Shown one piece after another: positions 8,101-32,700 of a stretch of DNA of 40,603 nucleotides. Source of the DNA: a virus; the IMG/VR virus record IMGVR_UViG_3300047997_000109, positions 1 through 40,603 of that record, one strand, 5' to 3'. The notes below the pieces were generated by a model. That model was not told the origin of the DNA. It saw only the letters and a list, made by a program, of their open reading frames with translations, and did not search any database. A program made the translations under genes and the position numbers. Positions within the stretch are counted from its first letter, which is position 1; each line of letters opens with the position of its first letter.

Positions 8101-8670
8101 GACAGTGATAATACTGGTACACTTAGAGTTCATAGTAATGCAGCGTCATCAAATTCTACTTCTGGAGCTCTGATTGTTGATGGTGGTGCTGGTATCTTCG
8201 GTGACTTAAATGTCGGTGGAAATCAAATTGTCACTGGCAATATTGAACTTGAGGGCGGACAACTAGATGTAAATAGTGGTGGCTCTAATAACTTTAAAGT
8301 TAATACTGATGGTAGTATTGACATAAATCAAGTTACTGGTTACTTTACACCTACTGCTGGTCGTAAGTGGGAAGAAATTGATTCGGACATCACGGTAGTC
8401 AGTAACGTTAATTACTATGTTACTACATTTACTGGAACGCAAGTTGTGGTTACACTTCCTACATCACCTCAAAAAGGTGATCAGATTCGTTTCTTGGATG
8501 TTACTGATGCTTTGACTTACAATAAGCAAATTAAGATTACTACAGGATCTGGCAGCAGCAATCCTATTCAAGGAGATGCTGGTGGAGAATTAATTATTCA
8601 GACACCTGGCGCAGGTTTCGGTCTGCTTTATATCAACTCTGTTATTGGTTGGCGTATAATCGAACTCTAA
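2185..8670 (+). CDS. Giant virion structural/fibre protein, beta-helix N-terminus
   Basis: This 2161-residue protein is the first gene of the late block and has a late promoter motif upstream. Residues about 20-90 carry a pattern typical of right-handed beta-helix proteins (VSPDDFNASDDVNNRG, then SPTRPFKSIQRAFLEVA and VVLSPGDHYIDNR), resembling DUF1565/pectate-lyase-like starts. The long middle is beta-rich and lacks recognised motifs. The last ~380 residues have fibre-type repeats (for example SGALIVDGGAGIFGDLNVGG and NTAVGNDSDNTGTLRV) and end in a compact C-terminal domain (VVVTLPTSPQKGDQIRFLDV ... GWRIIEL), as in phage tail fibres. It should be a tail or baseplate-attached fibre component that contacts the host surface (inference). 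The stop overlaps the next ATG (TAATG). Confidence 0.8.
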   Translation: MALTRLENLISSKTGRFVYVSPDDFNASDDVNNRGNSPTRPFKSIQRAFLEVARFSYKSGPDNDRFDEFTVVLSPGDHYIDNRPGVLSVNDIADFTSNVNFDLGNSQNDLYKFNSTTGGVIVPRGTSLVGMDLRKTKIRPLYVPNPTDVSVPKTSIFNVTGGCYFWQFSIFDGKQKVYFDASGNKADPTFSHHKITNFEFADAEDLQLYYDKIGDAYENMVVDINVDGAIQETDLENRIVGPLSDKKVIESITPQALGGNATEIRVKTKAPHGYFVAQFVTIDDTGLTNDLHGSFLITRLDPADNTLFYYRVNQSIPTLISGQTYTTASLPPNRLNENAVVQAEIDTVDSASPYIFNLSIRSTWGLAGMHADGSKVTGFKSMVCAQYTGVSLQKDDRAFTKFNEETAQFESAWNGVAVTDPEELATGSFATTPYHTDGRAYFKNEWRNAHVRLSNDAFIQAVSIFAVGFADHFLIESGADISITNSNSNFGNTALDAIGFKGFAFFQDKHGFVTDIVPPQTIDLDDTTQPPYYGIDILGSKEPAGSTRVYLSGEPEEIADPDSTPTYILQDYKVGSKREDRIYAKLDPDISAGESGPQERSAQLTPSGFDTFTVSSLATATQSVQNALGETIVYRATIFSCPEAHGLYTGTPVRLVPTRVNPNIGNELVRLPKGLEANTVYYVIAPGRHTAPVPPDQTFPTEDLNTFLLAASEDDAAAGNAINIPEALNAGVQISMQQYIFDVNPTPFKYKVVNADPATNEFTLESSHVFDKGFATKAATPVFFRAKPGSQLPGGIDANKMYYAIYDNTAGNTNKLKVALSSALAIQGGGVPYSFTSSGTVGVTNQDEVFIFSCNTRHPLKYDPEMTASPGRNGLWYLNVLNTAQQPNQIYQRVSTLAEYVNEEVITTSNTYIKRVNDRRREDDRIYRLRYVVPKEIDNVREPLLGYVLKVRTDENRRLRPQKIVLEAVDATTDIPVFFGDSPTVDPASGDNLAIEADYNYDPYLTGNSKSLVSDCGIKFTIESARLKNISGTDRIELTVFDHTINTNIAAGTALASGTILTEVKLSSVTGTFTLGLAVAWSGFSDSSEISGNLPVVHKVYIEGGTTRLVLRSDFPLLPTLKYNDSTTTIFASGSATGILAEKPNGGRDDFKDYESDLGKQYVIRNAPAYTLTPGDFVRDEADGNQKDYKIVSVTDVEEVENTYYVYRVKTLRRRIYNQQDGIYYLTCLRGDFSPSVSEFNTFKFGHPTERLYPELFADDPLWFDPDGDGSQIKDAPASNSVADNYVHGLVVADDNKNSVTKEAVESLLLNVERNTTVTLSAMDGKAVASREDRLIGVEGTSSAVADRRIYMELRRPSQARSGNHTFEYTGFGPGNYSTAFPSRQEYVLSDDEVLFSQAKRQDGGVVFYSGLNANGDLFVGNQRINAISGEETKIDDSVLRVAGENQDEESNTNDVTVDTLTVNNKVKFDLINDFQISAPGGTFFSTPVTIEVGDQFADSSDDPGSLTIKSVANTGIAGVDPALVETDMVFNPPFKPNTIQFAVWELNPRNISSGLNYSIKTSKDKTVPASESFKQEGTIELRGTETVGEAHRIANVNYNTTVGWIWCQTDGFQQGETPSYGWREWGVIGADALTTYTTGTGSTSIATGNDMRLGVNLKNTRVTNGSVIPLQTLDVEGSGIFRNSLWAGGDNLNPTGIHTFRAFDDDGNGVGRVSINTGDTAEVVGSIGLWVGGDIIARAGAVGSGESEAVGGGQSSGSLTIDGTFTALSGGQHEMVGDLTVTKALYVRGGLNKMYQIDSGSTLKSDIDQRQADDSLNYVTYAGQNIVVGDAVWGNDHFDDASTAKLVVKADGSARIGNASGGIQMDANSNVSIGEATPSATEKLWVNGSTKIEISATEVFTIFDDGDLRLKVTPTGQVDFVGDGTASVPNSRIGSTGSLTLGDDFTVKKADISTDTTFYIDSATGNTAVGNDSDNTGTLRVHSNAASSNSTSGALIVDGGAGIFGDLNVGGNQIVTGNIELEGGQLDVNSGGSNNFKVNTDGSIDINQVTGYFTPTAGRKWEEIDSDITVVSNVNYYVTTFTGTQVVVTLPTSPQKGDQIRFLDVTDALTYNKQIKITTGSGSSNPIQGDAGGELIIQTPGAGFGLLYINSVIGWRIIEL

Positions 8671-13280: not shown

Positions 13281-13928
13281 ATGGACATTACACCTATTCG
13301 TCCTCTAGAGCTGATGCTCGATGAGAACTTGACTAAATCAAACTTTGATGATTTTATTGGTGTTTGGGATAGTTTTATGCCCAAATCCGAGTGTCAGAAA
13401 TATATTGATTGGTTTGATGATCTAGAATCTCACGCTAGTGTTATCGGATCCTCAATGGATAACGGTGATATTGCTGACGGTAGATTTCAGTTTCCTCAAG
13501 GGAAGCAGGGTAGATATGATAAACAAACCCTGATTACTCATCAAAATCTTGAGTTGCAGCAATGCACTAATCAATATTTGGCATCAACTGTTGAACATTA
13601 CATTGGTGAGTTTCCACAGCTTGCAGGCGAATCACTGATTAGTAGTTGCATCAAGTTGCAAAAAACAGAGGAAGGTGGTGGATATCACGTCTGGCATTAT
13701 GAGGCTATGGGTCTTAACCATTCTTCTCGGTGTTTAGTGTGGGCGATATATTTGAATGATGATTATGAAGCTGGTGAGACTGAGTTTTTGATGCAAAAAC
13801 GTCGGGTTAAACCTCCTGCAGGAACTGTTGTAGTTTGGCCAGCTGGTTTTACGCATCCCCACAGAGGAAATACAGTATTAAAAGGCAATAAATATATCTT
13901 GACTGGTTGGTACTATCACAACGCATAA
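13281..13928 (+). CDS. 2OG-Fe(II) oxygenase, HxE variant
   Basis: A 215-residue protein of the prolyl-4-hydroxylase-like 2OG-Fe(II) oxygenase superfamily. The double-stranded beta-helix core runs from about residue 120 to the end. The proximal iron motif appears as GGGYHVWHYE, with His139 and Glu141 in the HxD/E position. The distal His lies in AGFTHPHRGN (His194), and Lys204 in GNKYILTGW is placed to bind 2-oxoglutarate. The family usually uses HxD, so Glu141 is an uncommon but known type of substitution. It is a paralogue of the minus-strand gene at 38087-38776, which keeps HYD. It lies three bases after the collar/Ig gene and next to the fibre chaperone, so fibre residues are one possible substrate (inference). 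Confidence 0.85.
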   Translation: MDITPIRPLELMLDENLTKSNFDDFIGVWDSFMPKSECQKYIDWFDDLESHASVIGSSMDNGDIADGRFQFPQGKQGRYDKQTLITHQNLELQQCTNQYLASTVEHYIGEFPQLAGESLISSCIKLQKTEEGGGYHVWHYEAMGLNHSSRCLVWAIYLNDDYEAGETEFLMQKRRVKPPAGTVVVWPAGFTHPHRGNTVLKGNKYILTGWYYHNA

Positions 13929-14582: not shown

Positions 14583-15248
14583 ATGTTTTATCGTTATGAA
14601 CTTTTGAATTCCGTCCAAGTCGGGCATATATTAAATCTTTGTGATGCTGGTACCTGGGAGGATGGTAAAGAATCTGGCAGTAGCGATAAACGAGTAAAGA
14701 ATAATTTCCAAATAGACAAACAGTCTGCATATGCGTGCTGGAGTATATTGGAAGGTTCTATGGATAATTGCGATGTTGTACGCGACTCAATGCTGAGCTG
14801 TGCTTATACGTTACCACATTTTTGTAAGTATGGTGTAGGATGCCATTATGATTGGCATACCGATCACGCACATATGGGTTCTAATCAAGATTTACGATCT
14901 GATGTTAGTACCACAGTTTTTTTAAATGAAGACTATGAAGGTGGGGAATTGGAGATTAAACTTGGCACTGAACTGATTAGTGTTAAGTTACCAGCAGGGT
15001 GGGCATTTAGTTACCCTACTGGAATACCACATAGAGTTAAACCTGTAACTGCTGGTGAAAGGAAAGTAGCAGTGCTTTGGGCTCAGTCTAGACTCAAAGA
15101 TCCTATGGATCGTCTGGCATTTGCAAGAATGCAAGAATGTATTACTAATACAGAATACAGTCCAGATTCTCCTGAATGGGAAATGGTTAGAATCATAGAC
15201 GAACAGAAAATGCATTTACTACGAACTAAAGGCGATCTGAGATCATAA
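14583..15248 (+). CDS. PiuC/YbiX-like PKHD-type 2OG-Fe(II) hydroxylase
   Basis: A 221-residue protein with the PKHD-type hydroxylase layout: an N-terminal segment RVKNNFQIDK, a central HxD pair in YDWHTDHAHMG (His92, Asp94), STTVFLNEDYEGGELEI, a distal His in YPTGIPHRVKPV (His150) and Arg160 in TAGERKVAVLWAQS. This is the standard set for Fe(II) and 2-oxoglutarate binding, so an active enzyme is expected. Homologues in bacteria are linked to iron-limited growth and are frequent in cyanophages (family knowledge); the substrate is unknown. It is distinct from the HxE/HYD pair of oxygenases elsewhere in the window. The next gene begins after a late promoter motif. Confidence 0.88.
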   Translation: MFYRYELLNSVQVGHILNLCDAGTWEDGKESGSSDKRVKNNFQIDKQSAYACWSILEGSMDNCDVVRDSMLSCAYTLPHFCKYGVGCHYDWHTDHAHMGSNQDLRSDVSTTVFLNEDYEGGELEIKLGTELISVKLPAGWAFSYPTGIPHRVKPVTAGERKVAVLWAQSRLKDPMDRLAFARMQECITNTEYSPDSPEWEMVRIIDEQKMHLLRTKGDLRS

Positions 15249-15251
15249 ATA
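15244..15251 (+). promoter_or_regulatory. T4-type late promoter motif CATAAATA
   Basis: CATAAATA overlaps the stop of the PiuC-like gene and lies 35 bases before the ATG of the 3229-residue protein. It fits the T4-like late octamer, and AGGGAAAG follows downstream in the leader. It implies late, virion-stage expression of the giant protease/copper protein. Confidence 0.6.
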
Positions 15252-15285: not shown

Positions 15286-18200
15286 ATGAGCAATAGAATT
15301 ATTGCGAGAATTTCTAAGGAAAATCAAGCCAGCGCTGTCATCGAAAGAGCGAAACAGCGTTTTACATCACTTCAGAACACCGAAGATCTGAGTCGTCTTA
15401 AGACTTTATTCTTAGATTTCGACGTAAAAGACGATAACTTTGTACAAATATTAAAGGGAGATGAATTCCCTGAGGTTATTGGAGCTGTTTGGGATAGAGA
15501 AATTTACCTAACGGGGGTAGAAACTGATGATTCACAGACATATGGATTAGAAGAAGTTGATGTGCAAGGTGGTTCTTTTGATAGAAGAGCAATTGCAGAG
15601 TCTTTATCAACTGACAACGAAGACATTGATGCGCTAGCACGTCAAATTAAACCTAGCGATTACGGCAACGTTATTCCTTATAACGTTGGTTCTGGTACTC
15701 AGTATTCAATCGCTGCTACTGTTGTTAATACTACTAGTGGTCCTAAGTTATACATCAACGGATCACAAGCTCCTGACCTGACATATGTTTTTCCTGGACA
15801 CGAATTAGTTATTGATGTTTCTGATAACTCTAACTTTGGTTATACTTTAGCTTTCTCTGAGACTCCTGATGGTACTCATAATGGCGGTACTAACTATGTG
15901 GTTGGTGTCTCCAGAACTGCTACTCCTGGTACCACTGGTGCTGAAGTAACACTAACTGTTTCGCAGACAACTCCGCAGCAGCTTTATCTTTATGCTAACG
16001 AAACCTCAAGAGTTGGTTTGCGTGGCGGTGGATTCTTAAATGCTACCGATCATTGTAAAGTCGCAATCTTTAGTAAGTGGTATCTTGCACGTATCACTCA
16101 GCAACAAAATTCACTGAATTATGGTCTGTACTCTTACACCGAGCACGGTGAGGGTGTTGACTGTTATGTTATTGATACTGGTATTCGTGGTGCATCACGT
16201 CCTACTAACGTTACTGGTGCTAACTTGCACCCTGAACTATTCCACCCTGATTATGCTGATGACTACAATACTGCTATTAATCAGGCTGAATATCGTGTCT
16301 ATGAAGTTCCTGGATACAATTCAGGATACACTGTAAATGGTGAGGCAAACTCTAACGAAGATGACAATGGTCACGGTAGTCAATGTGCCATTCTAATTGG
16401 TGGTCTGGAGCACGGTGTTGCACGTAAGACTAGATTCTATGCACTGAAATGTCAGAACAGCGCTGGTAGTGGTCTATTGTCCACATATGTGTTTGCTCTA
16501 CTAGCAATCATCAACCATAACGATCCTGCTCATCCTAACTATAAAGGAAGTACTAGACCAGCTATTATCAATGCTTCTCTGGGTGTTGGTACTATTCCGT
16601 CTGAAGTCTATCGTTACGTTCCTCAGAACGAACCTGGATTCGATAGTGGTTCATATGAAGCAGACACTGCTATGGACGACTATGAAAATCTTTGTGTAGA
16701 AAACGGAATCGTATTCGTTCGCTCTGCTGGTAACGGTTACGGTTATAACTTTAAGTACGGTGGATTCCAAGCTAAGTTTAATCCTGGTCCTCGTACTGCT
16801 GGTCCTCAGGACTACAGATATAATATGGAGGGTATTAGCGACAAGATTTCTGTCGGTGCTACGGCATATAATAATACATTCTCAGGATTCTCAAACTATG
16901 GTACTGGTGTTACCACCAGTGGTCCTGGAGAATCAATTTACTGCCCTCAGTATTATTGGAACACCAACAGTTCTTACAGCTCTGTTGGTTCCATTTATTA
17001 TGCTTATATTCGTGGTACTTCATTCTCTGGTCCTCTGACTGCTGGCGTTATCGCGCAGTATTTGGGCAAGAAAGGATATGAGAACAGAGCAACATATGAA
17101 GGCAAATCTGTTCCTAAACTTGCTAAAGAGTGGATTCGTAGAGAAATTGATTGGGATTACGAGAGAACGCAATCCGCTGTTGGTGAAGAATATGGTGGTG
17201 GTAGTGTAAACGTTTATCCTACTAATGACATCGATGAGATTACTCTCGATGGCATCAATACTTACATTGCTGTTGGTGCTGGCACCAATGAAATGTCTAT
17301 CACATTGGGTAGTGAATTCTCTAGATTCGATGCTACTGTTGGTGATAAGATGCAGTTCCGTATCCCTGAGGCAGTTCCTTCAGTGGATATCATCACTGAC
17401 GTTTGGGTTAGTAGTGATGGATCACCGACAGCAGCATATTATCAAGCTGGCGGATTGTTGAATCTTGTCACTGATAACGATCCTGCTCCTGGTCTTGCTG
17501 GTGTATTCCCTTCTGGTGGTACTACTGGTTATGTTTCTACCTTGTCTATCCAGAATCAAGGTTCTGGTTATACTATTGTCCCATCTGTTGCATTTACTGG
17601 TGGTGGCGGTACTGGTGCAACTGCAACCGCAGACATCACACTGACTGGTGGTAATATTACAAGCATCAACGTTGATCAAAGTGGTGCTGGATATACCGAA
17701 GCTCCTACTGTTGATATCGCTGGTGATGGTACTGGCGCAACTGCAACAGCTGTTATCTCTCTAACTGGTGGTGGTATTGATTCTGTTACGGTTACTAATG
17801 GTGGTTCTGGTTATAATCCTCTAAACCTTCCTGCAGTTACATTTACTGGTGGTGGTGGATCTGGTGCTACTGCTGTAGCTGTCATTACTGATGGTATCGT
17901 TAGTGCGGTTAATATTTCTAATCCTGGATCAGGATATTCTGAGGCACCTACTGTTGGCATTGCAATCTCTGCTGCAGCTAATCAAGGTAACACTATCCAC
18001 GCTCCTGATAGTTCTTTCGTGTCTGGCGGTGGTTCTACTACCTCTTCGTCACTGAATCAGACTACAAGATTGCTAACGGTTATTGCAGATAACCTGCCTC
18101 AACCTGCATTGTATGGAGCTTTCCCAAATAGCAATAACTCCAATACTATTACAGGTCAGTCTTACAACCATACCTGGGTTTATCGTGGTGGTAGAAATAT

Positions 18201-21200
18201 TTCCGATGAATCTCCTACATCTACTTTAGCTCAACCTTCTATTGGTATGGCGCTGAATGGTGTACAACTGCGTCATCTTTCGCACGGTTTGAATGTTGAT
18301 TTGCCTGATGGTACTGGTTGTCCTGATGGATATACCTTCAACAAAATTTTCAACTCTACTGCATTTGGCGCTGATAATGGTAGCGGTGTTGTAGATGGTT
18401 CTGGTATGTATCACTACATTACAGGTAATTTCTTAGTTAATACTTGGAAAGGTTCTTCTACAACCTATACTGTAACCATTAATGATCCTGGTGGTGGTAA
18501 CAAGTACTACCTTAACAATGGTCTGACACCTAATATCATTCTCACTGAAGGTAATACTTATTACTTTGATCAGAGTGATGTAAGTAACGCTGGTTATCCT
18601 TTCAGAATCTCTGAAACTCAGGATGGTGTGCATACTCAAGGCGGTGTTGCATACGAGATTGGATATCGTTATCAAGGTACACCTGGTGACGGTGTATCTG
18701 GTACAGGTTTATATCTTCAAGTTCAACCTGACACCCCTAATCTCTACTACTACTGCTCATTGTATTCTGGATACGGCAATGCTGCATCTGTGACTACAAC
18801 TACAAACACTGCAGCTCTTCCTTCGCATACAACTGCAGATATTATTAATGCAACTCATCACTCTCCTGTGATTGGTTATGCATACGATGGTTATCCAATC
18901 TACGGTCCTATTGGTTATTCAAGTCCTGGTTCACCCACCACACTTTCAAGAATGCAAAGTTCTTGGGGTGTTAAGGGAGAGCGTGATGGGACACAATATA
19001 GTGGATCTACGTACACCTGGGGTGTTACTGCTGATGATAGCTTAGACTTTGATTTTACTGGAGAAGCAATTGGTAGTGATATTGCAATCGCTGCTAACAT
19101 TGGCGACAACCTTGTGTTCAACGTCAATGCTTCTTATACTACTGGTGGTGGCGGTGGTAGTACACCTGCAACTTATAACTTAGTTGTTACTGCAAGTGGT
19201 TTTAGCGATTACACTGTCTCTGGTTCTGATAGAACTGGCAACGTTAGTGGATCTGATCCTAGTCTGACATTCTATGAAGGTGATACTATTAACTTCACGG
19301 TGTCTGCATCTGGTCACCCATTCTATCTAAAAACTGCAGCTGGTACTGGTACTGGCAATCAAATCTCTGGTGTTAGTAATCAAGGTACTCAGTCTGGTAC
19401 TGTCGCTTGGACTCCAGGTATTGGTTCTGCTGGTACTTACTATTATCAGTGTGAGTATCACGGCGGTATGGTCGGTACTATCACTATCCAGTCTGCTGGT
19501 GGTGGCGGTGGAACTACAATTACTCATCCTTTCTGGATTCAGAAAGTTCCTGCACCTTATAACCCTGCACAAGTTGTTGCTGGTGTTGTTAACAATGGTA
19601 GCTACAATGCTACGTTGTTGTGGAGTACTACAACTACAGCCCCTGGAACTTATTATTACGTCTGCGAAAATCATCAGGCAATGACAGGTACGATTACTCT
19701 GACTGAACCAGTTGGTTATGCTCCGTCTACTACGGCATATCCGATGGGTTCATTTGTGGAAGACTATCAGTACCTTGGTGGTGGCAACTTAGATCGTTGC
19801 AATGGTCGCTACTGTGTCACTCCTGAATTCCCTGGCGGCACATATGCATACTTCACTACATTCGATGCTTCTGCTAATCCTGCATTCCCATATATTCTAG
19901 GAGATAGGTACTACGGCGAACCAGTCACTGAAGCTGACACTGCACCGCAAAACCCAATCTTTGAGCAACCTGCATCTTCTGTGTGTACGATTGGTACACA
20001 AATTGGTGTAGTTGATACTATTAATGTAACTGATCAAGGTGTTGGTTATACTTACGCTAACATCACATTTAGTGGTGGCGGCGGTGTTGGTACAGTAGCA
20101 TCTCCTAATATCTCAGTGCTAGATGGTTATGTTTCTGGTCTTAACTTGATTGAACAGGGTTCTGGATACACAACTTCTCCTACTGTTACTATTAATCCTC
20201 CAAACGTTAGTGGTGGTGTGCAAGCAACATCTGTTGCACAGATTGCTATTACTGCAGGTAACCCAAATAGTATTGATAAGCAATCCTTTAACCAGAACTT
20301 TAACTGGAGAGGTGGTACTAACTATGCATCTGCCAGCTTGGTAGAGATGAAGCCTTTACGCAGTGTAAATGCTTTCGGTATTACTACTACTGGTACATTC
20401 CTGTACCACTATTCCTTCGAGAATGGTCCTACTCCTGGTTGGACATACAATACAGTTACTAATGGTAACCTCGTGGGTGAAGACTCTTATGGTGGTTATC
20501 CAAGTGCTGCTAACGTTTATGGTTATAACTCAAGCAAACTGTTGAGTGCATACGGCACCGTTGCTGTTTCTGGTTCTAACTATCTGTCTCAATCTTACTA
20601 CGATCTAGGATATCGTACTGTTAACTATATTATTACCACTGATACTAAGTCAGCATCAGCTCCTTACTACAATCAAGGTAGTCTTAATAACTATGTACTC
20701 CGTGGTGATACGTACACCGTTAACGTTGAAGCTCCACAACTGGACTTCACTAGAGGTAACACTTACATCTTTGATCTAAGTGATTCTTCTAATGATAATC
20801 ACCCGATGTACTTCTCCACCACTGATGATGGTATTCATAATGGTGGTGTTCGTTATAGCGATGGTGTTACTTACAGATTGGATGGTGCTGCAGTTGATGC
20901 TGTTACTTTCAGCAATAGCTTCAATAGTGCTACTACTCGTACGGTTACAATCGTTGTTCCTCAAAACTCTCCTGCATTGCTGTATTATGTCTGTGTGAAT
21001 CATCCACGTATGGGTAATCAATCTGTCGTGAACAGCAATGTTCAGGGTGATTACAAGCGTCATACTAACGGTCACTCCAAGATTCTTGGTATGACATTTG
21101 ACGGTTATCCAATCTATGGTCCTTACGGTTATTCTGATCGTGATGACAATAGCAGTGCGGTTATTCGTATGAAGCCTGCATATCTGCCGAAACTAGAGAA

Positions 21201-24200
21201 TAGAGTTCCTGATATGTTTGGATCACGTCCAGACAAAACAACCTATCCTATTGGATCTTTTAACGAAGACTTTGAATTCCAAGGCGGTAGCGAAGAAGAT
21301 AATATTACTGACATTACTTACAATGTTCAAGCTGCAGCTGCTACTGTTAGTGGTAGTGGTGGTCGCTATTATATCTCTGGTGGAACATTAAGTGGTTCTG
21401 CTGAGAAACCATCATTTAACTTTAAGAAAGGTAGAAAGTATACCTTTAACCTTTCTGATAGTTCAAATACCAGCCATATGATGCTGCTATCAACTAATGG
21501 TGATGCTCAAGCACAAGGTTGGCACGTTGCAGGATCGTCTCCTGGTGATGTTAACGCTGTTTATACAATCGGTGTTGTGTACAAGTTGGAAGATGTTGTA
21601 GTAACATATTCTGAATATGTCGCAGGATTTGACACTGCTACTTTGAGAAGCATTGAGTATACTCCTGCATCAAATGCTCCCCACGTGTTGTACTACTTCT
21701 GCTACAATCACTCTAATATGGGTGAGCGTATTATCATCGGTGACGTTGATAGCAGAAATGGTCGCTACTGTGTGACACCTGACTATCCGAATGGAACCTA
21801 TGCTTACTTCATCACTGAAGATCAGAATGGAGCTCCTGCATATCCTTACATAATGGGTGACTACTTCTACTCAGATCCTGTCTATCCTGGTGGTAATGCT
21901 GTAGAAGGATCCTCCTATGTCTATGACATTGGTGGTGTGCAATTCAACGTGCTTCAGAGATACTGGCAAACCATTACTGATGTTGATACTGCTAACAGCA
22001 GAATTACAATTGAACCTGATGCTGCTCAGTTTACTGGTGTTCAGTCTGAAACTGGTGGCAATCTGATCAAGATTGCTAATTTGAACGGTACTCATCAACG
22101 TGCTGATGGTATCCAACGCTGGATGGATGAAAATCCTGTTGGCAACAAACTATATTTCCAGACTGAAGCTCAAGAAGATGCTGGAAATGGTGAAGGTGAT
22201 GAGATCGTTTACCTTCCTACAGATAAGGGTGTTGATGGCGGTTATGTTCGCGGTCTGTTCTCTCCTTATATCAACCTGTTGACCACGTGGTACACACCTG
22301 CAGGTGCTTTGGGTACATTTAACATCGGTGATGTTATCAACCTTCAGCTTGGTGTTTCTTTCTTAAGAACATATGCTGCAGAGACAATTCTCGATAGAGA
22401 TTATTCACTGACTGGTGATTCTATTGTTGGTACTGGTCTTGCATTCGATACCGAAACTGGTGTCTTGAGTGGTACGTTGATCAACAACACAACCCTTGAC
22501 TTGACACTGACTGTAGAAGAAAATATTTCTGGTCAGACTCAAGAGTATACTATTCAGCTTACTAACACTACTGTTACAGTACAGAATGTTGCGCTGAAGA
22601 CTGGTGGTGCTTCGAGAACAATTGATTACTTGACTGTCACTAAGAAAGACGGACAACCTAATGATGATCTTATCTGGGAAGAGAATAAGTGGTATTCACG
22701 TCCTCTGAGCTATAAGTCATTCAGTGTTCTTGCATATCAAACTGGTTATGAAAATACTCAATTTGATTATCTTCCTCAGTGGCAAATTTGGGGAGATAAA
22801 GGTGCAGGTTTCATATGGCATAACATTAACGAGTATTCTACTGGTCCTGTTGCTGCTGGTCAATCTTGTCAGATTGAAGAAGGCGATTGGTTCGAGAATA
22901 ATTTGGCAGCGAGAGATCAATTCTACTCTTACAATGAGACTTTTGAAGATGTCACAGGACACGAAATTGCAATCTCTTTCCTCATTGTTAACAAATGGTG
23001 GAATTATGATCAAGATTTCTTCCGCCTCAAGATGCGTTATCGCTTGACATTCAATCTAGTTGCTACTGGTAATGACTATGCTACTGTCATTAACGAGTCT
23101 GGTTCTACTGTGTTTGAAGTACCCAAAGGTGCTACGTATCGCTTTGATATTAGCGATGCTTCCTGGGTTGGTAAGAACCTAGAACTGAGAGAATCTGCTA
23201 CTGGTAGTGCATACATTGGCACTAACGTTAGACGTTACGGTACTCCTGGCACACCAGGTGCTTGGGTCGATCTTATCGTTGATGAAGCTCAAGCTGGTTC
23301 TGTCTTCTACTTCGGTCAGGCAGGTGGTACTACATTTGCTACACAGCACCTTGATTTCACCAGCGTATTCAATGCATTGCTTTCCAATACGTTACAGCTT
23401 GGTCTTACTAATATCCCTGCAGTTCCTGCACAACCTCTGCTGACAATGGAATCTGGCGCTACATCAATCACTTCGAGTTCTTACTCTGTTGTGACTGAGT
23501 ATGGTGCTTTAACACACTTCCCTAACACGTTACCGTATCAGTCTAGTAACAAATCCCCTAAGGATGGTCGTTACCCAGTGAATCTTGTTTGTACTGACCA
23601 AAACATCGAGTTCAACTGGTACAGAAAGCTTTATAGTTATGATACTTCTACTGGCGTTAAGTCCTATAACTGGGACACTGTTGCTAACACCAGTTCTACT
23701 TATGTTCCTCTCAAGTCACCACATTATAGATCCAGGAGAGATTACGGTAACAATACTACTGCATATCATTCTTCTTGTGTTCTCGATGGTGCTAGCATCT
23801 ACGAAGCGAACTACGTTTCATTCGATGAAGACTTCCCACTTCGTGTGAACTATGGTGGTCCTCAGATTGAAATTCCTGTTCAATCTTCTTCACAACTACA
23901 GCCTCCGTTGGCAAACGATGGTACTGTGCTTCGTGTTACTGACCTTCCTTGTAAGGGCATCCCAAGTGGTGTAAATGACCCGTATGCTTATCAAGTTGTG
24001 GTTGGTAATGGCGATGCATTATCTTCTGTGTCGAACGAAATCAGTGCTATTGCTAACCCACCTGAAATGGGTATGTGGTGGTATGAGTATGCTAATGGTT
24101 GGACTGGTACCGTTTCTAATGGTTATCTGCGTCACGATCAAGGCTTCGTTGATACTACTCTGACTTGTGGCGATTACTTTGGTAACGTCTTAGTTCGCTC

Positions 24201-24975
24201 TTTCGTTATTGACGTGGGTCCTGCACCTTTGAGTGCACTGCCTTACATTGACATCAACACCTTGCAAGTACAAGATTACTACAAAGGTGCACAGAATCTG
24301 ACTGTGAGTAACAACCAGTCACAAGATGTGACGGTCTCTTACACAATCGATGCTGGTCAGTTTACCTGGAGATTGCGTCTGATCAATGAGTTCCCTTATA
24401 TGGAAAACGTTGATAGTGGTACTAGAACTGTTTACACTACAAATAATCCTGCCCACGCTAACGCTCCTACGATTGTTAATACTGGCGACTTCTCTACTTA
24501 TAGTGGTCAATTGGCCGCGGCAACTGGAGTACTTCGCGAGTGTCCTTTCCGTGGTGACACTAACGTCAACCTTCCTGTTGACTTCTCTGTTAAGAATGAC
24601 ATTCAACCTGCTATCTTCCCTGCACGTGGTACTCAAAAGGTCTACACATTGTGGGTGGAGCTGGTTGAGTCTCCATTCGATTTGGTTGACTTGATTAACC
24701 TTGTGGCAGTTGCTGATCCTTGCCAGGACCACACTTATGATTTTGCATACACCTCTAACGGTGCTTGCATTACACCATCTAATGATTACTTCTGTAACTT
24801 CATTAAACCCCTCCGCGACCGTGGTCACGGTGAACAACCGATCATCGGTATGGAAGGTGTTGCACAAATTAAGGTAACTGATGGAATTGCACCTAGAGCA
24901 TTGGACTTCCAGATCCCTGCTCCGTGGCCAGTTCTGTTCTCTTACCTAGGCGATTGTAACCCCACTTGCGCATAA
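15286..24975 (+). CDS. Giant subtilase / cupredoxin / YHYH virion protein
   Basis: The product is 3229 residues. Residues 1-80 resemble a subtilase I9-type propeptide (RIIARISKEN ... EFPEVIGAVWDREIYL). A complete S8 protease follows: Asp297 (YVIDTGIRG), His363 (DNGHGSQCA), oxyanion Asn483 (RSAGNG) and Ser579 (RGTSFSGPLTAGV). Four 40-41-residue GSGY/GAGY repeats follow (residues 759-884). Then come two split YHYH-type modules (MYHYI 1041 with YDGYPIYGP 1200; LYHYS 1706 with FDGYPIYGP 1938), each ending in NGRYCVTP (1506, 2158). Cupredoxin-like units lie before, within and after these; four have full copper ligands, for example His1344, Cys1389, His1392, Met1395, spaced Cys-x2-His-x2-Met as in amicyanin. 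The C-terminal ~700 residues are unrecognised. It is presumably a late virion protein; self-cleavage and copper binding are predictions. Confidence 0.85.
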   Translation: MSNRIIARISKENQASAVIERAKQRFTSLQNTEDLSRLKTLFLDFDVKDDNFVQILKGDEFPEVIGAVWDREIYLTGVETDDSQTYGLEEVDVQGGSFDRRAIAESLSTDNEDIDALARQIKPSDYGNVIPYNVGSGTQYSIAATVVNTTSGPKLYINGSQAPDLTYVFPGHELVIDVSDNSNFGYTLAFSETPDGTHNGGTNYVVGVSRTATPGTTGAEVTLTVSQTTPQQLYLYANETSRVGLRGGGFLNATDHCKVAIFSKWYLARITQQQNSLNYGLYSYTEHGEGVDCYVIDTGIRGASRPTNVTGANLHPELFHPDYADDYNTAINQAEYRVYEVPGYNSGYTVNGEANSNEDDNGHGSQCAILIGGLEHGVARKTRFYALKCQNSAGSGLLSTYVFALLAIINHNDPAHPNYKGSTRPAIINASLGVGTIPSEVYRYVPQNEPGFDSGSYEADTAMDDYENLCVENGIVFVRSAGNGYGYNFKYGGFQAKFNPGPRTAGPQDYRYNMEGISDKISVGATAYNNTFSGFSNYGTGVTTSGPGESIYCPQYYWNTNSSYSSVGSIYYAYIRGTSFSGPLTAGVIAQYLGKKGYENRATYEGKSVPKLAKEWIRREIDWDYERTQSAVGEEYGGGSVNVYPTNDIDEITLDGINTYIAVGAGTNEMSITLGSEFSRFDATVGDKMQFRIPEAVPSVDIITDVWVSSDGSPTAAYYQAGGLLNLVTDNDPAPGLAGVFPSGGTTGYVSTLSIQNQGSGYTIVPSVAFTGGGGTGATATADITLTGGNITSINVDQSGAGYTEAPTVDIAGDGTGATATAVISLTGGGIDSVTVTNGGSGYNPLNLPAVTFTGGGGSGATAVAVITDGIVSAVNISNPGSGYSEAPTVGIAISAAANQGNTIHAPDSSFVSGGGSTTSSSLNQTTRLLTVIADNLPQPALYGAFPNSNNSNTITGQSYNHTWVYRGGRNISDESPTSTLAQPSIGMALNGVQLRHLSHGLNVDLPDGTGCPDGYTFNKIFNSTAFGADNGSGVVDGSGMYHYITGNFLVNTWKGSSTTYTVTINDPGGGNKYYLNNGLTPNIILTEGNTYYFDQSDVSNAGYPFRISETQDGVHTQGGVAYEIGYRYQGTPGDGVSGTGLYLQVQPDTPNLYYYCSLYSGYGNAASVTTTTNTAALPSHTTADIINATHHSPVIGYAYDGYPIYGPIGYSSPGSPTTLSRMQSSWGVKGERDGTQYSGSTYTWGVTADDSLDFDFTGEAIGSDIAIAANIGDNLVFNVNASYTTGGGGGSTPATYNLVVTASGFSDYTVSGSDRTGNVSGSDPSLTFYEGDTINFTVSASGHPFYLKTAAGTGTGNQISGVSNQGTQSGTVAWTPGIGSAGTYYYQCEYHGGMVGTITIQSAGGGGGTTITHPFWIQKVPAPYNPAQVVAGVVNNGSYNATLLWSTTTTAPGTYYYVCENHQAMTGTITLTEPVGYAPSTTAYPMGSFVEDYQYLGGGNLDRCNGRYCVTPEFPGGTYAYFTTFDASANPAFPYILGDRYYGEPVTEADTAPQNPIFEQPASSVCTIGTQIGVVDTINVTDQGVGYTYANITFSGGGGVGTVASPNISVLDGYVSGLNLIEQGSGYTTSPTVTINPPNVSGGVQATSVAQIAITAGNPNSIDKQSFNQNFNWRGGTNYASASLVEMKPLRSVNAFGITTTGTFLYHYSFENGPTPGWTYNTVTNGNLVGEDSYGGYPSAANVYGYNSSKLLSAYGTVAVSGSNYLSQSYYDLGYRTVNYIITTDTKSASAPYYNQGSLNNYVLRGDTYTVNVEAPQLDFTRGNTYIFDLSDSSNDNHPMYFSTTDDGIHNGGVRYSDGVTYRLDGAAVDAVTFSNSFNSATTRTVTIVVPQNSPALLYYVCVNHPRMGNQSVVNSNVQGDYKRHTNGHSKILGMTFDGYPIYGPYGYSDRDDNSSAVIRMKPAYLPKLENRVPDMFGSRPDKTTYPIGSFNEDFEFQGGSEEDNITDITYNVQAAAATVSGSGGRYYISGGTLSGSAEKPSFNFKKGRKYTFNLSDSSNTSHMMLLSTNGDAQAQGWHVAGSSPGDVNAVYTIGVVYKLEDVVVTYSEYVAGFDTATLRSIEYTPASNAPHVLYYFCYNHSNMGERIIIGDVDSRNGRYCVTPDYPNGTYAYFITEDQNGAPAYPYIMGDYFYSDPVYPGGNAVEGSSYVYDIGGVQFNVLQRYWQTITDVDTANSRITIEPDAAQFTGVQSETGGNLIKIANLNGTHQRADGIQRWMDENPVGNKLYFQTEAQEDAGNGEGDEIVYLPTDKGVDGGYVRGLFSPYINLLTTWYTPAGALGTFNIGDVINLQLGVSFLRTYAAETILDRDYSLTGDSIVGTGLAFDTETGVLSGTLINNTTLDLTLTVEENISGQTQEYTIQLTNTTVTVQNVALKTGGASRTIDYLTVTKKDGQPNDDLIWEENKWYSRPLSYKSFSVLAYQTGYENTQFDYLPQWQIWGDKGAGFIWHNINEYSTGPVAAGQSCQIEEGDWFENNLAARDQFYSYNETFEDVTGHEIAISFLIVNKWWNYDQDFFRLKMRYRLTFNLVATGNDYATVINESGSTVFEVPKGATYRFDISDASWVGKNLELRESATGSAYIGTNVRRYGTPGTPGAWVDLIVDEAQAGSVFYFGQAGGTTFATQHLDFTSVFNALLSNTLQLGLTNIPAVPAQPLLTMESGATSITSSSYSVVTEYGALTHFPNTLPYQSSNKSPKDGRYPVNLVCTDQNIEFNWYRKLYSYDTSTGVKSYNWDTVANTSSTYVPLKSPHYRSRRDYGNNTTAYHSSCVLDGASIYEANYVSFDEDFPLRVNYGGPQIEIPVQSSSQLQPPLANDGTVLRVTDLPCKGIPSGVNDPYAYQVVVGNGDALSSVSNEISAIANPPEMGMWWYEYANGWTGTVSNGYLRHDQGFVDTTLTCGDYFGNVLVRSFVIDVGPAPLSALPYIDINTLQVQDYYKGAQNLTVSNNQSQDVTVSYTIDAGQFTWRLRLINEFPYMENVDSGTRTVYTTNNPAHANAPTIVNTGDFSTYSGQLAAATGVLRECPFRGDTNVNLPVDFSVKNDIQPAIFPARGTQKVYTLWVELVESPFDLVDLINLVAVADPCQDHTYDFAYTSNGACITPSNDYFCNFIKPLRDRGHGEQPIIGMEGVAQIKVTDGIAPRALDFQIPAPWPVLFSYLGDCNPTCA
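17560..17980 (+). repeat. Coding tandem repeats, GSGY/GGGGxGATA units of about 41 codons
   Basis: Within the giant protein, units opening with GSGY, GAGY, GSGY and GSGY start at residues 759, 800, 840 and 881, each followed by a GGGGTGATATA- or GDGTGATATA-like stretch. Two further units (GVGY 1585, GSGY 1625) occur later with the same 40-residue step. Such repeats form beta-solenoid or fibre-like stalks in phage proteins and probably space the protease from the copper modules. Confidence 0.75.
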
Positions 24976-24999: not shown

Positions 25000-26946
25000 A
25001 TGGCATTAATTTACCCACCAGCGTTGGGAAGCATTCCGTCACCATCTTCCCTAACTCCCACATTGAACGCTACAACGTTCTTTGGGGAAGCTGGAGTTGG
25101 TACTCACGACTCGACAGACTGGCAAGTCGCCACATCGGATACCTTCTCATCAGCATCATTAGTTTACAATCAGAATGATACTGTCAACTTAAATAGTCTG
25201 ACAATTCCAGCTGCTACGTTAGTATCTGACACGTTCTATTATGTTCGTGTTAGACATCGCGATGATGCATCTGAGATTTCTAACTGGTCACAGGTAGCAG
25301 AATTTAACACGGGTCTTCCAATTGAAACACCTGTTGTTACTATCTCTTCTCCAACCCCATTGATTCCTGTTATTACATCATCTGCATTTGTTGGTGGTAA
25401 TACTCACACTAGAACTGATTGGCAGATCGCTAGCGATCTTCTCTTTACTACTATAGTTGAGGAGCTGATCGATTCACCCTCAAGTCTGACGCAATATACT
25501 CCACAAACTCTTTCATATAATAATCTATATTATGTGAGAATAAGATATAAGGATAACCTGGGTACGTACTCAAGTTATAGTAGTCCAGTATCATTCTATA
25601 CTGACACTCAGATTAATGTTAACCCTAAGATTAATCGTCCTGCTATTCTTTCTCCTGTAGCTGATGCTTCTAATGTAATCATTACACCTACAATTACATC
25701 CAGTGGATTTACTGGTAGTAATGGTGCTACTCACGTATCAAGTACCTGGGAAGTTGCATTTTCTCCTACATTTGGTAGCAGCTCAGGCAGTGCACCTGGA
25801 GCATCTGGTGCACCATCACCACAGATTGATAATACTAGTGGTCTTGTACATAGAGCACAGAATGACATTAACAATAAGACAAGTCTCACTCTTTCTTTAG
25901 GTATCCTAGAAGAAGCTAAGACATACTTTGTACGTGTTCGTTACGAGTATGTTGACTTGCAGGCACAGTATTGGTATTCTGAATGGTCAGAACCTGTACA
26001 GTTTAATACTGTTGCTGTTCCTGGAGAAATACAGTGTCCGTTTGTTAGTAGTGTTATCGAATCTACTATCTACGATAGACTAGACGTGGTTACATCACCA
26101 TTTGTTGCTACACAATCAACGACACAATCACACATTAATAGTGACTGGCAAGTTGCAACTGATGCAGCTTTCGCCAATCTAGTGATCGTTGCAACAGAAG
26201 ATAATACAAACAAAACTACATTCCCAATTCCTCTTGACTCTATTCGTCCTTCCACTAACTATTACGTTAGGGTTCGTTATTATAATAGCAGCATCTACTC
26301 TGCTTATTCAGCAGGGTATGTATTCCAGTCGCCTTCAACCGCAACTGGTACGCTGCAAGACTTCACAAGAGTCCAGACAGACACACTAGATGATCTTTCG
26401 GTGTCAACCAATAAGATCATTAACCTAAGTGTAACGACACCAAAACTTGCAGATGATGCTGTCACTGCAGCTAAAATTGCTCAGGGTGGTATTATTACAG
26501 ATAACCTCCAAAATGGAGCTGTAACTGAACCTAAATTGAATCAAACCCCTGGATCTCAAGCAGTTACTGCAGCTACAATGCGTGACAGTGCTGTAGAGAC
26601 ATCTAAACTTGATAATGGCGCTGTAACATCACCTAAGATTGATATCAGTGGTGCTGTTGATCCTGCAGCACCCACAGTGGGTCAAGTATTCTATAATACT
26701 GCTCAAAGTACATTCAAGACTTATAACGGTGCAAACTGGAAAGAGTCTGGTGATGCTGGTGATTATTACATCATTCGCAAACCTCAACCAGGTGATACAA
26801 ACTTAACAATTGTATATGCTGGTAGACAAACAAACGTTTCTTATGCCGAATATTCATCTAATTTGAATACACACCAGTTCTTCGCACCAAGCGGTCTGGA
26901 ATTCAATATAGATAGTAGTGGGCATCTTGTCGTCACAGTAAGATAA
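25000..26946 (+). CDS. Tail fibre protein with Fn3-like domains and KL-repeat region
   Basis: A 648-residue protein. About residues 12-445 hold four fibronectin-III-like units, each with STDWQVATSDTF or RTDWQIASDLLF near the start and FYYVRVRHRDD, LYYVRIRYKD or NYYVRVRYYNS near the end. About residues 455-560 carry fibre-type repeats such as KLADDAVTAAKIAQGG and GAVTEPKLNQTP, known in phage fibres as a flexible trimeric shaft. The last ~85 residues form a terminal domain (VGQVFYNTAQSTFKTYNGAN). It is likely a host-contact or fibre-shaft protein. The stop TAA is directly followed by the ATG of the next gene. Confidence 0.75.
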   Translation: MALIYPPALGSIPSPSSLTPTLNATTFFGEAGVGTHDSTDWQVATSDTFSSASLVYNQNDTVNLNSLTIPAATLVSDTFYYVRVRHRDDASEISNWSQVAEFNTGLPIETPVVTISSPTPLIPVITSSAFVGGNTHTRTDWQIASDLLFTTIVEELIDSPSSLTQYTPQTLSYNNLYYVRIRYKDNLGTYSSYSSPVSFYTDTQINVNPKINRPAILSPVADASNVIITPTITSSGFTGSNGATHVSSTWEVAFSPTFGSSSGSAPGASGAPSPQIDNTSGLVHRAQNDINNKTSLTLSLGILEEAKTYFVRVRYEYVDLQAQYWYSEWSEPVQFNTVAVPGEIQCPFVSSVIESTIYDRLDVVTSPFVATQSTTQSHINSDWQVATDAAFANLVIVATEDNTNKTTFPIPLDSIRPSTNYYVRVRYYNSSIYSAYSAGYVFQSPSTATGTLQDFTRVQTDTLDDLSVSTNKIINLSVTTPKLADDAVTAAKIAQGGIITDNLQNGAVTEPKLNQTPGSQAVTAATMRDSAVETSKLDNGAVTSPKIDISGAVDPAAPTVGQVFYNTAQSTFKTYNGANWKESGDAGDYYIIRKPQPGDTNLTIVYAGRQTNVSYAEYSSNLNTHQFFAPSGLEFNIDSSGHLVVTVR

Positions 26947-29795: not shown

Positions 29796-32700
29796 ATGCC
29801 TTTATTCGCAGCTAAAGGGATGATGTCGTCTGGTGGCGGCGGAAATTTCTATACCCTTGTAGAAGCAAAGCGCGACACACACGATAATTCCAGTTATAGA
29901 CAACCATCTGGAATGTATGATGTCGCCACCTCATCATCTGGTGAGGTGTACACTGTTAATGGAGAAAGAAATACTCTTACTGGTTTATACAACACTGTAG
30001 TTGCCAAGATTGGTGCTATTGGTGCTGTTTCTTGGCAGTATACATTTTCATCTGCCAATAATGTATATCCCTGTGCTTTAGCTTGTAACACAACAGACAA
30101 TAGTATCTTTGTCTGTTTTATGGTGACCACAAATGAGAACGGTGTCAATAACTATAACTTAAAGCGTTTTAATTATTCCAACGTTGGGTGGAATGACTCC
30201 ACCAATGATGCGACCTATCATATTATGAAGATCAGCTCTGCTGGTAACAGAGTATGGGAGAACATCTGGAATTCATCTAACTCTGCAACATATCCTGCAT
30301 CAATCAATAATCTCAACGTATCAAATAATTTTGAACACGCTAATGTGTTTGAGAATAGAAATGATACTAGCAGTGAGATGTGTACTGCCAAGATGGGTGC
30401 ACCTGATCTTAAGATTACTAAGGTAAGATCATATCGTGGTACTGGATTTGAATCAAGCGAACCTCGTCATCCTCAACAGGATACGATGCACGACTCTCAG
30501 AGTAACTTTGTTAATCCTACAACTGATAACCTAGTTAATCTTGGATATGCATTTGGTGGTGAAGAAAGCTATGAAGCATTCTCACTTGACGGTCCTGCAT
30601 TTGGTGGGCGTCCACAATCAACATCAAACATTGCAATTGATATTGCCAATGAGAAATTTTATATCCTAGTAGCAGGTAATGCTACCACTACAGATCTATC
30701 AAAGTCTCGTAGTACATTGCAAGCACTTCAGATTCCCTTCAATGGGGTAGCTGTGCAAGCGAAAGAATTAGTGTATCCTGGTGGGTGGGATCAGAATGCA
30801 AAGATCACCCTTGATAAAGATGGTAAGTTGTTGATTCCTTGGACTGGAACTAACAAAGAAGAATTATATAAGAACCAAACTGCTTCTAATTATCTCGGAC
30901 TATTTGATACTGGTACTACCACTGATAACATTAACACTGGCAACACTGGCGCATTTATGCGTGTTGACTGGGATAATGATGACTTTGATTTTACTTGGTA
31001 TGCTAAGGATGGTACTGCACCAGTCAAAGTTTGTAAGGTTGAACCAGAGCCTACATCAGAAGGTACAGTTTACGAATATGTTTCCACTGGTGGTCTAACT
31101 CCAGCACCAAACGTTATTCTTGGTAGATATACCGCTAGTAGAGATAATCAACCACAGTCTACTCGTGTACAGATAGGTCGTCACTCTAACCTTATTCAGC
31201 TGAATAAGAAGAACATTGGCACCAATGCAATTGATTGGGTAAGAACATTCTTTGCAGTTCCTAATTCTAGCATTAGGGATATGAACAACTACTTTAACAA
31301 TGGTAGTACTAATGATAGAGGCACTGCATTCACTGCAGATATCCACTTTGCTGATAGTAAGGTTTTTGCAAATGGTATCTATTACGTAGGAAACGTAGTT
31401 TTATCAAACCACGGTCCTTCAGGAAGTACATATACTAACAAACTTAGTTACTTTGGATTTGTTGCAAAAATCAAATTTGATGGAACTATTGATTACATCA
31501 GAGAAGTTAGAGGGCTGAAAGATGTAGTCTCAAGTCCAACTGAGAAACCTAAGTATGAGTACGAACCACTAACTGATGGTGGTGTGTTGTTGGATAGCAT
31601 TAACTTTGATGCGTTCAACAATATGATTCTCACTGCTCGTACGTTCAGTGATAGAATGATAGGTACAGTTGGTAACTACATTGATAATGTAATCCTCAAG
31701 CTGCCTCACAATGGTGACCTGATTGGTCCTATCCTTGTCGAAGATGCGGAGCATAATGTAACTAGAAGATTCTCATATACTCCTGCTAGTACTGTTAGAT
31801 GTTGGGAAGAAACAAAGTATGATACTACCATCACTAATGCTACTAACCTTGAAACATATAAGCTGCTAAGATGTTGTGCTCTGTGGAATACACACGCAAG
31901 CAATGCAACTAACCCCACAAGTCTTGGCAACGTAAGTACACAAGGAAATTACAATGCTTGGATGGCATCTGGTGCTAGATTAGTGACATTGGATAATGGT
32001 ACATATGCTGGTAGATTCTTATGGCAGGGACCAACAACTAACCTGCAGATTGATAGCACTTCCAATAGACAATGGGATCGTGCTGATCGTAGAAGCTCTT
32101 CTAACATCTTCTTACAAACATATGAAGAGACTACAGAGACTAGTGCAATTGAAGTACAGAAGTCTTGTGGTGCATATGTTTATGTTGACCAGACAGTTAA
32201 CACTGACAATGCAAAGACAGACTTCGATGTTTCTAGTTACGCCAAGTCTAATGCTGCTGGTGTTCTAGGTGATATACAAGAGATATCTAAGCAAGAGAAT
32301 TTCAATGCAATGGTATCTGTATCTCAGTATTGGGATGGTAACACTGGACTGCGCAAGCAATTGCTAACTCGTCACACTCCTACTGGTGGTGTTGAGTCTC
32401 GTATCTATGACACGGGCTTTAACACTTACCCTAAAGATGTATGTGTGGATGAAGTTGGTAACATCTATACAGTTGGTTGGACTGCTGATACAACTAACAG
32501 CAACAACTTTGGTTGTGGTTATATCACTTGTTACAATAAGGATATGACATTCCAGTGGGATTATCAGTATGTCAATTCTGATGCTACCACACTCGACACA
32601 GCAACAGAGAACTTCCAGATCCACGCTTGTGCTGTCACTTTAGATACATCTAATACTGCAGTATTGTTTATTGGTGGTCATTACTCACGAACCTCTAGTG

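Follow-up and report, generated by a model that had tools for sequence, protein, structure and literature searches.

A giant phage protein in which a subtilisin-type protease domain is joined to nested cupredoxin modules with conserved type-1 copper ligands

Why would a phage embed cupredoxins, which in their plastocyanin, amicyanin and rusticyanin forms are free periplasmic or lumenal proteins, in a giant protein that also carries a protease domain? The question is raised by one gene of a viral fragment of 40.6 kb (40,603 nucleotides, analyzed in full and called the window below), for which orthologs were drawn from IMG/VR. The original prediction, made from the sequence alone, had described a probable late virion protein in which an S8 protease is combined with four cupredoxin modules with complete type-1 copper ligands and three that have lost them. 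It had also offered two hypotheses, namely an action on host-surface proteins and copper capture. The gene and the features of its first part are as follows.

15244–15251, + strand: T4-type late-promoter-like motif CATAAATA, 34 bases upstream of the ATG
15286–24975, + strand: whole gene, 3229 aa, reading frame open throughout
15286–15495, + strand: N-terminal beta-alpha-beta-beta-alpha-beta domain of subtilisin-propeptide (I9-like) shape (residues 1–70, pLDDT 62–85)
16069–17205, + strand: S8 subtilase domain with D297, H363, N483 and S579 (Pfam, PDB match, relatives' alignment)
17518–18000, + strand: Gly-rich SGYT-type beta repeats, common to phage virion structural proteins (phrog_701 and other stretches; sequence)

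The genomic setting agrees with a late gene in a T4-like cyanophage, as indicated by tail-fibre homologues in cyanophages, photosystem genes and the CATAAATA motif. Homologues of the tail fibre encoded at 2185–8670 occur in 461 phage records, almost all of them from cyanophages, and photosystem reaction-centre genes are present in the records of six of eight relatives. The late promoter postulated ahead of the gene is motif-like and regularly placed: all five NATAAATA sites in the window lie on the + strand, and four of them stand 29–36 bases before a gene start, the 5–70-base zone before gene starts making up about 5% of the window. These four sites, at 2141, 13887, 15244 and 28838, suggest late transcription units. 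The protease gene is surrounded by tail-fibre, collar, tail-assembly-chaperone and 2OG-Fe(II) oxygenase genes, and several of the neighbouring tail proteins are giants. Together with the promoter motif and with homologous modules on annotated baseplate and tail-fibre proteins, these neighbours make a tail protein likely, and we infer a location in the virion. Among the genes of the window we recognised neither a redox partner nor a gene for copper handling, and searching phage records for near-identical copies of the protease gene gave no match. Two 2OG-Fe(II) oxygenase genes (13281–13928 and 14583–15248) flank the tail-assembly chaperone among the tail genes, and a 1391-aa ORF at 29796–33971 is without PHROG match at E 0.01.

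The protease assignment is well supported. Residues 250–648 alone match PF00082 (Peptidase_S8) with 81.9 bits (cut-off 21.8; E 6.3e-23), and aqualysin-1 in the PDB is matched at E 3.9e-15 with the D, H and S blocks aligned. All four catalytic residues occupy the positions originally given for them; they are invariant in every phage homologue that has the respective column (84–92 of 99 aligned stretches) and kept throughout the ~25 orthologs. Foldseek with the S8 model returned subtilases, the best at 1.3e-3 for what is a low-confidence model. Owing to shallow alignments, confidence was low in the predicted folds of both the S8 and the YHYH regions, and only the model of the first two intact cupredoxins and the N-terminal secondary-structure order were used. 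The latter resembles that of an I9-type propeptide, in a shallow-alignment model and without a Pfam I9 match. The S8 domain is of proteinase-K type and is predicted to be a working protease.

The core of the protein turned out to be more intricate than the row of modules first described. It consists of two YHYH domains into which the cupredoxins are inserted, a scaffold that the original prediction had overlooked, as it had the nesting of modules and the wide family to which they belong. Below, m1–m4 denote modules with intact ligands and d1–d3 the degenerate ones, the percentages being probabilities from profile–profile comparison.

15697–16035, + strand: d1, degenerate cupredoxin, ligands lost here and intact in P-HM1 and relatives (93%)
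18157–18453, + strand: YHYH domain 1, first part (PF14240 positions 14–93)
18463–18801, + strand: d2, degenerate cupredoxin in YHYH 1, still with Cys but no longer with His and Met (97%)
18817–19014, + strand: YHYH domain 1, second part, with DGYPIYGP (PF14240 positions 83–145)
19009–19137, + strand: m2 cupredoxin, N-terminal half (profile positions 4–47, predicted structure)
19162–19491, + strand: m1 cupredoxin, full type-1 set H1344/C1389/H1392/M1395, inside m2 between Gly-rich linkers (profile, fold)
19495–19710, + strand: m2 cupredoxin, C-terminal half, H1414/C1460/H1463/M1466 (profile)
19681–19935, + strand: YHYH domain 1, third part (PF14240 positions 125–185)
20353–20685, + strand: YHYH domain 2, probable first part, YHY around H1708 (sequence; H1708 in 21 of 23 orthologs)
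20689–21039, + strand: m3 cupredoxin, H1839/C1903/H1906/M1909, inserted in YHYH 2 (99%)
21058–21294, + strand: YHYH domain 2, second part (PF14240 positions 90–155)
21343–21750, + strand: m4 cupredoxin, H2064/C2139/H2142/M2145, inserted in YHYH 2 (97%)
21733–21885, + strand: YHYH domain 2, last part (PF14240 positions 154–185)
23047–23400, + strand: d3, possible degenerate cupredoxin, uncertain (47%)

YHYH (PF14240) is the strongest Pfam family in the protein, with 139.5 bits against a cut-off of 25. Its matches are collinear but broken: profile positions 14–93, 83–145 and 125–185 fall at 18217–18465, 18829–19014 and 19681–19872 in YHYH 1, and positions 90–155 and 154–185 at 21064–21291 and 21733–21828 in YHYH 2. 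The gaps are filled by d2 and m1/m2 in the first domain and by m3 and m4 in the second. Known YHYH proteins (PF14240; phage YHYH, PMC7824862; pelagimyophage structural operons, PMC7029224) share the domain and the tail-region gene with our protein, in which, however, each of the two YHYH domains is split by cupredoxins. The histidines of the proposed Zn site of YHYH 2 are largely kept in the orthologs (H1708 in 21 of 23, H1926 and H1930 in 21 of 21), while Tyr replaces the motif His at H1043 of YHYH 1 in 19 of 25; judging from these residues, YHYH 1 looks weakened. Since YHYH domains are predicted to be tail-associated metal-dependent hydrolases (PMC7824862), two hydrolytic activities may be joined in one protein.

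A second level of insertion lies within the cupredoxins themselves. The phage cupredoxin profile is matched from position 4 to 47 before m1, completely over m1, and from 47 to 105 behind m1; a Gly-rich linker marks each of the two joins, and the two halves of m2 joined in silico match uninterrupted modules elsewhere (L051, E 4.7e-20). All four predicted modules are thus present, m2 not as a contiguous unit but split by m1. Their 16 ligand residues stand exactly where they had been assigned, and the protein contains exactly four C-x2-H-x2-M motifs, those of m1–m4; conservation and fold rule out a chance origin of these motifs.

The cupredoxin fold, a Greek-key beta-sandwich, is supported most directly for m1 and m2, as the predicted structure of residues about 1236–1480 has pLDDT values mostly of 80–94. 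The m1 model superimposes on the cupredoxin domain of the Hyphomicrobium nitrite reductase NirK (2dv6; Z 10.9, rmsd 2.5 over 97 residues) and on rusticyanin (2cal; Z 10.5, rmsd 2.2 over 95 residues), and laccase as well as nitrite reductase domains are among the best structural neighbours. PF00127 (plastocyanin/azurin family) scores 23.3 bits over the whole protein (cut-off 21.2), and m1 alone matches solved plastocyanins weakly (8.7e-4). Since Pfam searches with isolated m3, m4 and d1–d3 gave no meaningful family, these were compared with an independent phage cupredoxin profile, against which three control segments scored 0–3%. On this profile evidence m3 and m4 are assigned the cupredoxin fold. 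The same comparison identifies two of the three supposed ligand-less modules, d1 and d2, as real degenerate copies and leaves d3 doubtful. The modules share fold and His/Cys/His/Met ligands with plastocyanin, amicyanin and rusticyanin, and their Cys-x2-His-x2-Met spacing is that of amicyanin, as had been pointed out. They are, however, not amicyanins (TIGR02657, 19.8 bits against a cut-off of 110.2). Plastocyanin membership is likewise rejected (TIGR02656, 26.8 against 87.85 bits), and so is a multicopper oxidase or laccase, the H-x-H of the trinuclear centre being absent from the whole protein.

Conservation analysis was based on about 25 distinct orthologous ORFs from IMG/VR, which share 59–83% identity apart from near-copies. 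One ortholog (L027) is divided into two overlapping ORFs in different frames (5998–8650 and 8570 onward; 884 and 2414 aa), reflecting a frameshift or an assembly error. The ligands of m1 are invariant in 25 of 25 orthologs and those of m4 in 21 of 21, whereas their His and Cys codons vary silently (CAC/CAT, TGT/TGC), which points to purifying selection on these residues. In m2, Cys and His are lost together in five orthologs; ligand loss affects m3 in eight, which read HSGE in six cases, NG-M in one and HCHQ in one, and d1 and d2 have lost ligands throughout the lineage of this protein. Copper thus appears dispensable in single modules. In decayed sites, Cys and the adjoining His mostly vanish jointly (HSAM, HSGE, NG-M), the behaviour expected of a metal site; the sole exception, HCHQ, loses only Met.

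Divergent modules show the same pattern. A second-pass search yielded 184 S8 relatives and 342 module relatives, of which 80 each were kept. Among 38 phage modules with less than 60% identity, the His, Cys and His ligands are conserved to 100% and Met to 97%, and the four are among the seven most conserved of 103 columns; these values are somewhat inflated because intact modules had served to make the module profile and the Cys formed part of one scan pattern; neither the two His nor the Met entered the patterns of that scan. Fusion with a protease is frequent: of 93 S8 ORFs collected, 59 also encode a cupredoxin, which in 58 cases has C-x2-H-x2-M. By the module profile, 20 of 63 full-length S8 ORFs lack one, including L097, where a module is visible by eye.

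Fusions of S8 and cupredoxin also occur in the cultured cyanophages P-HM1 of Prochlorococcus (PHM1_104) and, from Synechococcus, S-BM3 ('peptidase S8', WDS61281.1) and S-H9-1 (gp171, 'subtilisin-like serine protease'), whose annotations mention neither copper nor cupredoxin. These homologues lie in the tail or structural region and their modules are ligand-complete, but they are shorter (668–2648 versus 3229 aa) and carry the module elsewhere: before and after S8 in P-HM1, inside it in S-BM3 and at the C-terminus in S-H9-1. Among further records, the module precedes S8 in L101 and L173 and follows it in L154. In S-BM3 (L002, 13737–21683), the protease is interrupted by the module between positions 191 and 196 of the S8 profile, and further along the protein has another intact module with C-x2-H-x2-M. 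The S8-like protein SXBG_00005 of S-CAM1 (L207, 2341–4596) contains a circularly permuted module, with profile positions 85–106 before 2–85, that keeps all four ligands; LESGS stands where the usual S8 Asp motif is expected. Intact modules are further present in Bellamy gp29 and in the gp9-like baseplate connector of S-RS29, which ends with one. S8, YHYH and cupredoxin domains are thus each known, and the S8–cupredoxin fusion is already contained in deposited cyanophage genomes, unremarked in the open-access papers searched. There we found no paper on cupredoxins in cyanophages, virions or phage virion proteins, an absence of little weight.

Outside phages, close relatives of the modules come mostly from genomes of marine Bacteroidetes, including Flavobacteria. 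They are either small proteins of about 125–155 aa with apparent signal or lipoprotein peptides or C-terminal modules of larger surface-type proteins, one with Ig-like and InlB-type repeats. Flavobacterial cupredoxins of both kinds (e.g., L255, 3941–4315, and L221, 776–4315) share the ligands and reach 71% identity to m1; neither S8 nor YHYH was seen in the same ORF. A module tree, built on few columns and weakly resolved, did not cleanly separate phage from bacterial modules, the phage label requiring six changes of which only two are forced.

Taken together, we give an even chance to the following model. The gene product would be made late and would face outward from the tail or baseplate of a T4-like cyanophage. 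In it, a propeptide-shaped domain precedes an S8 domain that most likely clips proteins; its targets would be host-envelope proteins at the time of adsorption or, during maturation, large fibre proteins of the phage itself. Surface loops of the YHYH domains would have taken in cupredoxin modules by repeated domain insertion. Ig-like decoration domains are small beta-sandwich modules that occur at many sites of phage virion proteins, and the cupredoxins would serve as similar decoration; by analogy, their placement is comparable, whereas they belong to a different family and retain metal ligands. The decoration reading is supported by the range of module sites: on either side of S8 and within it, within YHYH or another cupredoxin, and on a baseplate connector. 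Because such decorations keep type-1 sites, copper would most likely be loaded once the virion is outside the reducing cytoplasm, and bound copper would most likely rigidify the module and aid engagement of the host surface. The long-kept ligand residues suggest that the surface of some virus particles bears copper.

If the modules were pure structural spacers with the copper site an ancestral leftover, the losses of ligands in d1, d2, m2 and m3 would be readily tolerated, and the modules do behave like interchangeable decorations. We nevertheless consider this improbable, as conservation across the family is highest at the ligands, which persist in m1 and m4 through silent codon change and survive circular permutation in S-CAM1. 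An equally modest likelihood attaches to a protease that acts as a maturation enzyme on the phage's own giant tail proteins, with the copper modules as unrelated passengers. The propeptide-shaped N-terminus, the adjoining giant tail proteins and the fully conserved S8 residues agree with such a role, which leaves the retained copper ligands unexplained. Copper piracy, in which the virion loads copper and docks as a Trojan horse on copper-uptake or copper-binding surface proteins of the host, seems rather unlikely to us. It would profit from several independent predicted sites per chain, conserved ligands and an outward-facing protein region, and an iron counterpart for phage tails (Ferrojan Horse) is already in the literature; for a tail fibre of an Alteromonas phage, six potential iron-binding domains are described (PMC11705849). 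Against it, single modules lose their ligands and the nearest bacterial modules belong to ordinary surface-type proteins. A virion redox enzyme that passes electrons, e.g., so that reactive oxygen is quenched or produced at the cell surface, or that carries out laccase-like oxidation, would suit the intact type-1 sets and the laccase and nitrite reductase neighbours in structure, but is very unlikely, as no electron-transfer partner domain was seen and the missing H-x-H argues against a laccase-type centre.

Within the favoured model of copper-binding decorations, a broader generalisation is tentative: marine phage virions might widely carry unrecognised blue-copper (type-1) decorations, mobile cupredoxins, of a kind also present in marine Flavobacteria, that are inserted in proteases, YHYH domains and each other, loaded with copper outside the cell and put to use when the host is recognised or entered. 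Should the sites indeed bind copper, each copy of the protein would bring several copper ions into the virions of phages that are abundant in the ocean. The Ferrojan Horse idea would then have its equivalent for copper, and a new factor would come into play in adsorption and in the traffic of trace metals. The fusions in P-HM1, S-BM3 and S-H9-1 make this directly testable in cultured cyanophages. Moreover, cupredoxins that act as mobile insertion modules, nested, intra-protease or permuted, are relevant to domain evolution.

Two further observations concern gene neighbourhoods. In a marine Bacteroidetes record (L242, 3386–4315), a single exported cupredoxin is encoded directly downstream of a DUF411 gene. 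In the window, phrog_27200 is the family with the best coverage of the protease protein; its C-terminal part recurs in the N-terminal part of the gene that follows the protease gene, at 25000–26946, pointing to a possible gene fission or fusion.
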